A stretch of 48,054 nt of DNA from a virus. Made by a program: the position numbers and the translations under genes. Below are positions 34,369 through 47,549 of the stretch, piece by piece (the stretch's first letter is position 1; each line of letters begins with the position of its first letter). The notes beneath the pieces are model-generated. The model did no database searches. It was given only the letters and a program-made list of their open reading frames with translations, and was not told where the DNA came from. The DNA lies in the IMG/VR virus record IMGVR_UViG_3300037875_000125, positions 1 through 48,054 of that record. One strand, written 5' to 3'.

Positions 34369-34386
34369 CAAAAAAGTCAAGTCTAA

Positions 34387-45120: not shown

Positions 45121-45348
45121 ATGAATAATATGACACACGAACACGAACGCCCCGCCGACCCGTCCACCCACGCCACGGGAAAGACTCAGGAGTACTACAT
45201 CTATTTGGAGGAACTGCGTGATAGCGGCGTGACAAATATGTGGGGTGCATCCTCTTACCTTGAGGAGGAGTTTGACCTCGGACGGAAAGACGCTAGGGCC
45301 ATTCACCTCGCCTGGATCAAGGCATTTATGGAGGATCCGAAACAATGA
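45121..45348 (+). CDS. Small phage protein of unknown function
   Basis: 75 residues with GAGGAAAC before the ATG. EYYIYLEELRDSGVTNMWGA (24-43) and SYLEEEFDLGRKDARAIHLA (45-64) form a pattern frequent in phage small proteins. The 3' end (KAFMEDPKQ) is part of a 56-bp duplication that recurs at 45683-45738. Confidence 0.72.
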   Translation: MNNMTHEHERPADPSTHATGKTQEYYIYLEELRDSGVTNMWGASSYLEEEFDLGRKDARAIHLAWIKAFMEDPKQ

Positions 45349-45373
45349 AACAGTTTACTTGTTGTATTTGTGG
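45318..45373 (+). repeat. Direct repeat A, copy 1
   Basis: 56 bp spanning the end of the gene at 45121 and the start of the zinc-ribbon gene. Differs from copy 2 at two positions. Confidence 0.9.
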
Positions 45374-45524
45374 CAAGAAAGAAACAGGTTGGGGTAATAA
45401 CCCTGACCCAATAACAGATGAGGCTGGGCAGTTCTTCGATAAAGACGCTCAATGTTGTGAGGAGTGTAATAGTAAGATAGTAATATCTAAAAGGTACGCC
45501 GATCTACTCCGTTTTAAAAGGTAA
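45345..45524 (+). CDS. Small zinc-ribbon protein
   Basis: 59 residues. CCICGKKETGWGNNPDPITD (6-25) and a second pair QCCEECNSKIVISKRYADLL (36-55) make a C-x2-C...C-x2-C zinc ribbon of a type seen widely in phages and bacteria. The ATG overlaps the upstream stop (ATGA). Its first half was copied, in rearranged pieces, into the two genes downstream. Confidence 0.72.
   Translation: MKQFTCCICGKKETGWGNNPDPITDEAGQFFDKDAQCCEECNSKIVISKRYADLLRFKR
45374..45434 (+). repeat. Direct repeat B, copy 1
   Basis: 61 bp inside the zinc-ribbon gene, directly following repeat A copy 1. Identical to copy 2. Confidence 0.9.
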
Positions 45525-45530
45525 TAAAAA

Positions 45531-45713
45531 ATGAAACGAATAATGAAAAACATATGTGGACTCCTCATTATGGGGGGAATATTAATTAGCACGGGTACTC
45601 TCAAGAAAGAAACAGGTTGGGGTAATAACCCTGACCCAATAACAGATGAGGCTGGGCAGTTCATTGAGGAGCTTATTTCTAACAAGGCATTTATGGAGGA
45701 TCCGAAACAATGA
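45531..45713 (+). CDS. Chimeric small ORF assembled from duplicated segments
   Basis: 60 residues in three parts: a new hydrophobic N-terminus (MKRIMKNICGLLIMGGILIS, signal-peptide or membrane-like), the middle of the zinc-ribbon protein (KKETGWGNNPDPITDEAGQF) without its cysteine pairs, and the C-terminus KAFMEDPKQ of the gene at 45121. It looks like a recombination product rather than an evolved protein, though it has a start and could be expressed. Confidence 0.5.
   Translation: MKRIMKNICGLLIMGGILISTGTLKKETGWGNNPDPITDEAGQFIEELISNKAFMEDPKQ
45602..45662 (+). repeat. Direct repeat B, copy 2
   Basis: 61 bp, identical to copy 1 but placed before, not after, repeat A. Confidence 0.9.
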
Positions 45714-45738
45714 AACAGGTTACTTGTTGTATCTGTGG
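45683..45738 (+). repeat. Direct repeat A, copy 2
   Basis: 56 bp, two mismatches to copy 1. It supplies the C-terminus of the chimeric ORF and the N-terminus of the gene at 45710. Confidence 0.9.
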
Positions 45739-46072
45739 TATGAGTGTCCCTGTTACCCAAACTCAACAGCCAGAAATTAAGAAGCTAAGGGCCTTCAAGG
45801 GTGAAATCTTTAAGAATTTCGCAGAGTTCCGTGTACAGCAGAGTAGCTTTAACGATGTAGGTACTATCATGCTGGAAGGTGAGTTTTACGAAATGCTTAT
45901 AAATGTAAATCAGATCGTAAAAGTGCATAGCTTTGAAGACGGCAAGAAGAAGGATCATTCTAGCCTAATGTTTATCGCGGAAGACAACCCAAAAGGTATT
46001 GTTCCTATCTTGGTGCGTGAGGAATATGATGATATCCTTAAGCGTATCCGTAGAGCAGCGGAAAGTAAATAA
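45710..46072 (+). CDS. Hypothetical protein with a grafted zinc-ribbon N-terminus
   Basis: 120 residues. The first ten (MKQVTCCICG) copy the start of the zinc-ribbon gene at 45345; the rest (MSVPVTQTQQPEIKKLRAFK onward) is unrelated. An in-frame ATG at 45740 is probably the ancestral start, giving 110 residues. The body resembles small beta-rich phage proteins (EFYEMLINVNQIVKVHSFED). Unrecognised. Confidence 0.6.
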   Translation: MKQVTCCICGMSVPVTQTQQPEIKKLRAFKGEIFKNFAEFRVQQSSFNDVGTIMLEGEFYEMLINVNQIVKVHSFEDGKKKDHSSLMFIAEDNPKGIVPILVREEYDDILKRIRRAAESK

Positions 46073-46413
46073 TGAAGAAGCTATTAGAGAGTGTACTACT
46101 TTTGGTAGGAGGGGTGAGCTTGGTTGGATGTATCTTTGTTGTCCCAGCAGAGGAAACACCAAAGAACGCTGTAATTGATGAAGTCGTACCCTCTTCGTTC
46201 TTGGCTAACATGTCCGTTGGCCCTGAGGGACCTTGGTATGTATGGATGCAAAAGAGGACAAGGTGCAGCCATCAACAGATAGACCCTAGAGGGTTGTGTG
46301 GTAGGGCTTATATTTTTTTGATGAAGGAGGAGCCTCCTGTGTGTGATGAGGGATGTCATGATGAATTAGAGGCTCTTAAGACTCAATCTCGTTGGGATAA
46401 AAAAGTCAAATGA
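46072..46413 (+). CDS. Predicted lipoprotein
   Basis: 113 residues. Signal MKKLLESVLLLVGGVSLVGC with lipidated C20. The body contains two Cys pairs (RCSHQQIDPRGLCGRAY and PVCDEGCHDELEAL), suggesting disulphides in the periplasm. Unrecognised. 1-bp overlap with the upstream gene and 4-bp with the next lipoprotein. Confidence 0.68.
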   Translation: MKKLLESVLLLVGGVSLVGCIFVVPAEETPKNAVIDEVVPSSFLANMSVGPEGPWYVWMQKRTRCSHQQIDPRGLCGRAYIFLMKEEPPVCDEGCHDELEALKTQSRWDKKVK

Positions 46414-47416: not shown

Positions 47417-47442
47417 CAGTAATGTATTGGTTGGAGGGTTTC
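47398..47442. terminator. Bidirectional terminator between the membrane protein gene and tRNA-Asp
   Basis: A 12-bp perfect stem GAAACCCTCCAA / TTGGAGGGTTTC with a 21-base loop, T-rich on the plus side (TTTGT) and A-rich upstream (AAAGAA), so it can end both the plus-strand operon and the minus-strand tRNA transcript. Confidence 0.78.
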
Positions 47443-47448
47443 TTTGTA

Positions 47449-47525
47449 TGGCGAGGATGAGGGGACTTGAACCCCTAACCTTTGGCGTGACAGGCCAACG
47501 CTCTAACCTATTGAGCTACATCCCC
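47449..47525 (-). tRNA. tRNA-Asp (anticodon GUC)
   Basis: 77-base cloverleaf on the minus strand with encoded CCA and G73. Acceptor GGGGATG/CATCCTC (one G-T pair), D-stem GCTC/GAGC, anticodon stem TTGGC/GCCAA with loop CTGTCAC (anticodon at 47489-47491), T-stem AGGGG/CCCCT with TTCAAGT loop. Confidence 0.93.
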
Positions 47526-47540
47526 ATATGTTCTAATACC

Positions 47541-47549
47541 CCATTATAG
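47541..47549 (-). promoter_or_regulatory. CTATAATGG promoter element before tRNA-Asp
   Basis: On the minus strand CTATAATGG, with predicted +1 near 47536, 11 bases before the tRNA. Same arrangement as the element in front of tRNA-Ile. Confidence 0.6.

Follow-up and report, generated by a model that had tools for sequence, protein, structure and literature searches.

Near the end of a 48-kb phage fragment from IMG/VR (record IMGVR_UViG_3300037875_000125, positions 1 to 48,054; this whole stretch is referred to as the window), two adjacent short segments, A and B, recur downstream in reversed order. Did this rearrangement give rise to a new small gene, or did it break an old one? The window encodes a contractile-tail sheath protein and RecA. 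The named phages nearest in sheath sequence are T4-like phages and other large myoviruses, with 26–37% identity. Judged from these predicted proteins, the virus is a tailed phage and a distant relative of the T4-like myoviruses. Because the sheath identity is limited to 26–37%, the window phage falls into no described group among the phages compared. A megablast search with the 44–48 kb region against 50,697 phage records returned no match, nor did tblastn searches of the same records with gene 44021 and with the conserved domain encoded downstream of the rearrangement.

The two copies, B′ and A′, are connected by a 20-bp stretch, Y, and together they form a 137-bp insert (Table 1). Sequence comparison confirmed the repeat coordinates and identities given in a preliminary description of the locus, and the ORF list contains both the chimeric ORF and the start at 45710, with its MKQVTCCICG N-terminus, that had been pointed out there. 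In a self-comparison of the window, B/B′ and A/A′ are the sole extended repeats (E about 1e-27 and 1e-20), the next best being 18-bp palindromes. Comparable local repeats are absent from the other contigs of the family that were surveyed. Short repeats are generally known to mislead assemblers. However, four further IMG/VR contigs (3300023276_000670, 3300037842_000333, 3300038363_000058 and 3300038359_000043), drawn from four metagenomes, share the arrangement and differ from the window at 0–2 positions over 4.3–6.1 kb. Since all four agree with the window base for base across 45121–46072, misassembly is very unlikely. Y, a unique sequence, is also directly flanked by B′ and A′, and we regard the chance of an assembly artefact as negligible.

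Table 1 Features of the rearranged locus (positions in the window).
Feature	Coordinates	Strand	Description
g45121	45121..45348	+	75-aa ORF; last codons and stop lie within segment A
Donor segment A	45318..45373	+	End of g45121, GGAGG ribosome-binding site, ATGA stop/start overlap, first zinc-ribbon codons
Zinc-ribbon-like gene	45345..45524	+	59-aa ORF, CCxC..CCxxC; contiguous A-B original
Donor segment B	45374..45434	+	Middle part of the zinc-ribbon gene
Chimeric ORF	45531..45713	+	60 aa: leader, B′, Y and tail of g45121
Hydrophobic leader	45531..45601	+	Most likely from the ancestral gene, now start of the chimeric ORF; position, hydrophobicity and frame as in L026, L041/L043/L045 and L047
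Insert B′-Y-A′	45602..45738	+	137 bp, 2 mod 3; breaks the ancestral frame, flanks in frame without it
B′	45602..45662	+	Copy of B, 61/61
Y	45663..45682	+	20-bp join between B′ and A′, source unexplained
A′	45683..45738	+	Copy of A, 54/56; carries GGAGG, ATGA junction and new start codon 45710
Severed domain gene	45710..46072	+	120 aa: MKQVTCCICG from A′, old linker, conserved domain
Ancestral linker and conserved domain	45739..46072	+	Assigned by alignment with intact homologues
Downstream neighbour	46072..46413	+	Also adjoins the intact gene in L041/L043/L045

The donor segments belong to g45121 and the zinc-ribbon-like gene. The contiguous A-B order had been proposed to be the original one, and this direction holds, because the zinc-ribbon gene has a contiguous homologue in sister locus L008 (48%). 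Homologues of g45121 are present in L017 and L018, at 49–54% identity. The zinc-ribbon protein has weak matches in two phage records and no match in 84,980 prokaryote genomes. Neither gene was found in the sister loci that carry an intact gene at the insertion site (L026, L041, L043, L045 and L047). Judging from gene content, the two genes were either gained by the window lineage or lost from the other lineages. At the place of genes 45121 and 45345, many sister loci encode a rapidly changing basic protein that starts with a signal-like leader (MKYILSIVLL..., MKNVICVLLM...) and contains Lys/Arg-rich repeats, for example at 2302–2835 in L041, 4164–4607 in L047 and 6789–7163 in L025. The length of this protein varies between near-identical contigs.

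Two scans recovered sister loci, one using the conserved neighbour gene 44021 as query and the other an alignment of gene 44954. Three sister lineages have a single intact gene at the place of the insertion, downstream of the same conserved genes as in the window, which encodes 142 residues in L026, 162 residues in L041/L043/L045 and 132 residues in L047. The intact gene product is composed of a hydrophobic leader, a linker that differs in length between the relatives, and a conserved C-terminal domain. The C-terminal part corresponds to the domain of the window gene 45710, with 52–61% identity over the aligned part. For the domain itself, identity to the intact homologues is 57–63%, so that its divergence from them does not exceed the divergence among the relatives themselves (51–56%), but since the insertion is young, domain divergence is no test of present-day selection on the domain. 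Two further scans with the domain family gave matches only in the window lineage itself and in L026.

Joined without the insert, the flanks form one open frame of 134 codons (MKRIMKNICGLLIMGGILISTGTL-MSVPVTQTQQPEIKKLRAFKGEIFKNFAEF...), the product of which aligns with the intact genes through linker and domain. No near-identical strain with an empty site was found, and we thus infer the exact ancestral linker. The leader occupies 23 codons and two bases of the 45531 ORF before B′ begins, and N-terminal leaders are hydrophobic in the window and in all intact homologues. The 24-residue leader, too short and divergent for proof by sequence, is most likely homologous to those of the intact genes, as judged from its position, hydrophobicity and frame. 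The insert, 2 mod 3 in length, lies between in-frame flanks, and therefore one gene was cut in two. We consider it very probable that insertion of the B′-Y-A′ patch into the linker split a gene of about 134 codons into a leader ORF and a domain ORF. The locus had previously been read as gene birth by short-segment shuffling. The shuffling, the hydrophobic leader of the chimeric ORF and the added MKQVTCCICG all stand; birth is not supported, because a single older gene most likely supplied both the leader of the 45531 ORF and the body of the 45710 gene, as its two halves.

The preliminary description also placed the older start of the domain gene at 45740, an in-frame ATG, from which it would have been extended by MKQVTCCICG, with a new leader ORF arising separately next to it. 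The start at 45710 is preceded by GGAGG at 10 nt, and that at 45740 has no Shine-Dalgarno match or other ribosome-binding site. In the three sister lineages, the gene begins much further upstream and opens with a hydrophobic leader, and the counterparts of MSVPVTQTQQ are linker inside this longer gene; L047 has APVPQGGKQTI opposite SVPVTQTQQPEI of the window. The alignment indicates that MSVPVT is most likely linker rather than an old N-terminus. As leader and domain also join in frame, an ancestral start at 45740 is quite improbable.

In the insert, 117 of the 137 bp were copied in the same orientation from 228 bp (B) and 365 bp (A) upstream. Both outer ends of the insert, the left one belonging to B′ and the right one to A′, map to the donor point 45373/45374, a coincidence with a chance of about 0.002 if the ends are independent. 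The best description of the insert is a single 117-bp block that was copied in permuted form, its ends joined by Y. The patch may have been inserted at a replication fork, through a template switch or repair synthesis, or it may have been joined to a nick or break at 45373/45374. The permuted block would arise from serial template switches combined with a nick at the donor point, or if both ends of a break there were joined; a small circle opened at 45373/45374 would be an equivalent route. The mapping of the two outer junctions to a single donor point fits such a circle- or break-derived 117-bp block. Template-switch insertions usually show microhomology at their junctions (PMC8421209). By inspection, no microhomology is visible at the outer joins, where the ancestral bases are reconstructed, or between Y and A′; its apparent absence from the outer joins does not favour the usual template-switch pattern.

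No convincing source of Y was found within the window or in relatives, and in IMG/VR the 20-mer occurs only in the window lineage. Y could be a surviving piece of the ancestral linker if B′ and A′ had been inserted separately, and the outcome would still be gene fission. Y encodes IEELIS, where L026 has IIEELVP, and in its match to the L026 gene it equals or exceeds 98% of Y shuffles; allowing for the several targets (0.02, 0.03, 0.22 and 0.53), however, the match is weak. An equivalent stretch, PEIKKLRAF, is already present in the window linker, and a retained Y would break the empty-site frame. Two insertions would also leave the shared donor point unexplained, and we consider them unlikely. 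The preferred origin, a single permuted patch, involves no recognizable mobile element: the insert consists of B′-Y-A′ only, with no endonuclease gene or remnant, and no endonuclease family is represented among the nearby small genes.

The donor segments and their copies differ at 2 of 117 bases, both of them in A/A′ (2 of 56), whereas among the five contigs, the window included, three variable sites were counted over several kb. On this comparison, the event predates the common ancestor of the contigs. The insertion is young; its age nevertheless exceeds that of the sampled population, where it appears fixed. The rearrangement had been called recent and still in progress. The first term agrees with the small divergence of the copies; the second is not supported, since every contig of the lineage that was recovered has the arrangement.

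The GGAGG and ATGA junction of the donor is present unchanged in A′, where the chimeric leader ORF occupies the position that g45121 has in the donor, and the severed domain that of the zinc-ribbon gene. B′ is open in one of three frames, which is the frame used by the leader, and the new start at 45710 is in frame with the domain. These two favourable frame choices, with a chance of about 1/9, hint at selection. Owing to the frame shift introduced by the patch, the leader ORF ends at the stop brought by A′, and the patch supplies GGAGG and an ATG overlapping that stop, in the same coupled junction as in the donor. Ribosomes would finish the 60-residue chimeric leader peptide and then start or restart at 45710. 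The domain would be made as a separate, leaderless and probably cytosolic protein, and the leader peptide may be a by-product or decaying. From its sequence, the domain has probably lost its membrane or export leader. We tentatively propose, as a possibility we hold to be less than even, that compact, coupled gene borders act as start cassettes: a locally copied piece with a whole junction of stop, ribosome-binding site and start would rescue a gene broken by templated insertion and make a leader-bearing protein cytosolic in one step.

A fused protein would still be made if ribosomes skipped the insert, as in the hop of T4 gene 60, or shifted frame. GGT codons are positioned in the right frames before the insert (45594) and at its end (45737), and the chimeric ORF is open up to its overlap with the 45710 frame. 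Such a matching codon pair can, however, easily occur by chance, and inspection identified neither a standard slippery heptamer nor a stop adjoining the take-off codon. The insert RNA has no Rfam match and no unusual fold (z = +0.47), which speaks against a hop and gives no sign of a self-splicing intron or structured RNA. A single fused product is hardly credible, and separate translation of the two ORFs is predicted instead.

The severed domain is predicted to have a small β/α fold (pLDDT 73.8). The best matches of the model are among small phage proteins, one of which is a predicted 'flagellar and swarming motility protein' (probability 1.00, E 4.7e-3), and the modelled domain may be FlbD-like. 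Sequence searches with the domain gave nothing above the cut-off in Pfam, PHROGs and PDB. A PH/PTB-like identity was not relied on, as the PDB fold matches had E > 0.01 and poor TM-scores. Downstream of the same conserved gene, L022 (3900–4226) and L024 (4659–4988) contain genes encoding a leader and a small domain (..RESIMIHTDNIVTV..EPF[ED]EFMERIRRSQ). According to a weak domain match (E 0.003, probability 10%), they are possibly distantly related to the split gene.

Split genes are known from T4-like phages, including nrdA of Aeh1 (mobE), T4 topoisomerase gene 60 (mobA) and gene 43A/43B (PMC2988022). There, an insertion cuts one phage gene into two separately translated ORFs, as is predicted for the gene in the window; in both cases relatives have intact genes and overlapping stop and start codons (UAAUGA in the T4-like phages) occur (PMC2988022). 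The T4-like split genes are mostly linked to homing endonuclease genes (PMC2988022), whereas the 137-bp insert has none, derives from sequence lying a few hundred bases upstream and brings a start signal with it. The closest known case is that of 43A/43B, split by an intercistronic sequence (PMC2988022). Insertions produced by template switching or MMBIR in yeast and human cells likewise copy short nearby segments, with several templates per patch, but mostly have a few bp of junction microhomology (PMC8421209); in the window insert none is visible at the outer junctions, and the patch contains an untemplated 20-bp stretch. In bacteria, structural changes also build new ORFs from pieces of existing genes (PMC12803068), through deletion and fusion rather than insertion and fission. 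Mitochondrial cox2 was recently split by an insertion into two genes (PMC5374615), in an animal organelle, by a 3-kb ORF cluster with a nuclease-like gene, and its products apparently form a heterodimer. Splitting of phage genes by insertion is thus already known; new here is a locally templated patch that has its own start signal and no mobile element. A literature search, with most subscription journals outside its reach, found no description of this case.

The locus is a readable, relatively young case of the origin of small phage genes, in which donors, patch, target gene and intact relatives are all visible. It illustrates that what looks like a new leader-bearing ORF with a chimeric tail can be the relic of a broken gene, and that phage split genes need no homing endonuclease. 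The predicted consequence is that the conserved domain loses its membrane or export targeting. If the start-cassette reading is general, it would provide a route to split phage genes without a mobile element.

The motif AAAAAAGTCAAAT, with at most one mismatch, is repeated on the + strand, mostly downstream of the locus. It occurs seven times in the window, at 34370, 46399, 46960, 47036, 47085, 47223 and 47272, compared with 0.23 expected. Six of the seven copies lie within 46.4–47.3 kb, and two pairs are spaced exactly 49 bases apart. AAAAAAGTCAAAT is possibly a phage promoter or other regulatory motif. Further downstream, the ORF at 47427–47549 (MARMRGLEPLTFGVTGQRSNLLSYIPI...) overlies a tRNA-Asp gene on the opposite strand (47449–47525) and is most likely spurious.
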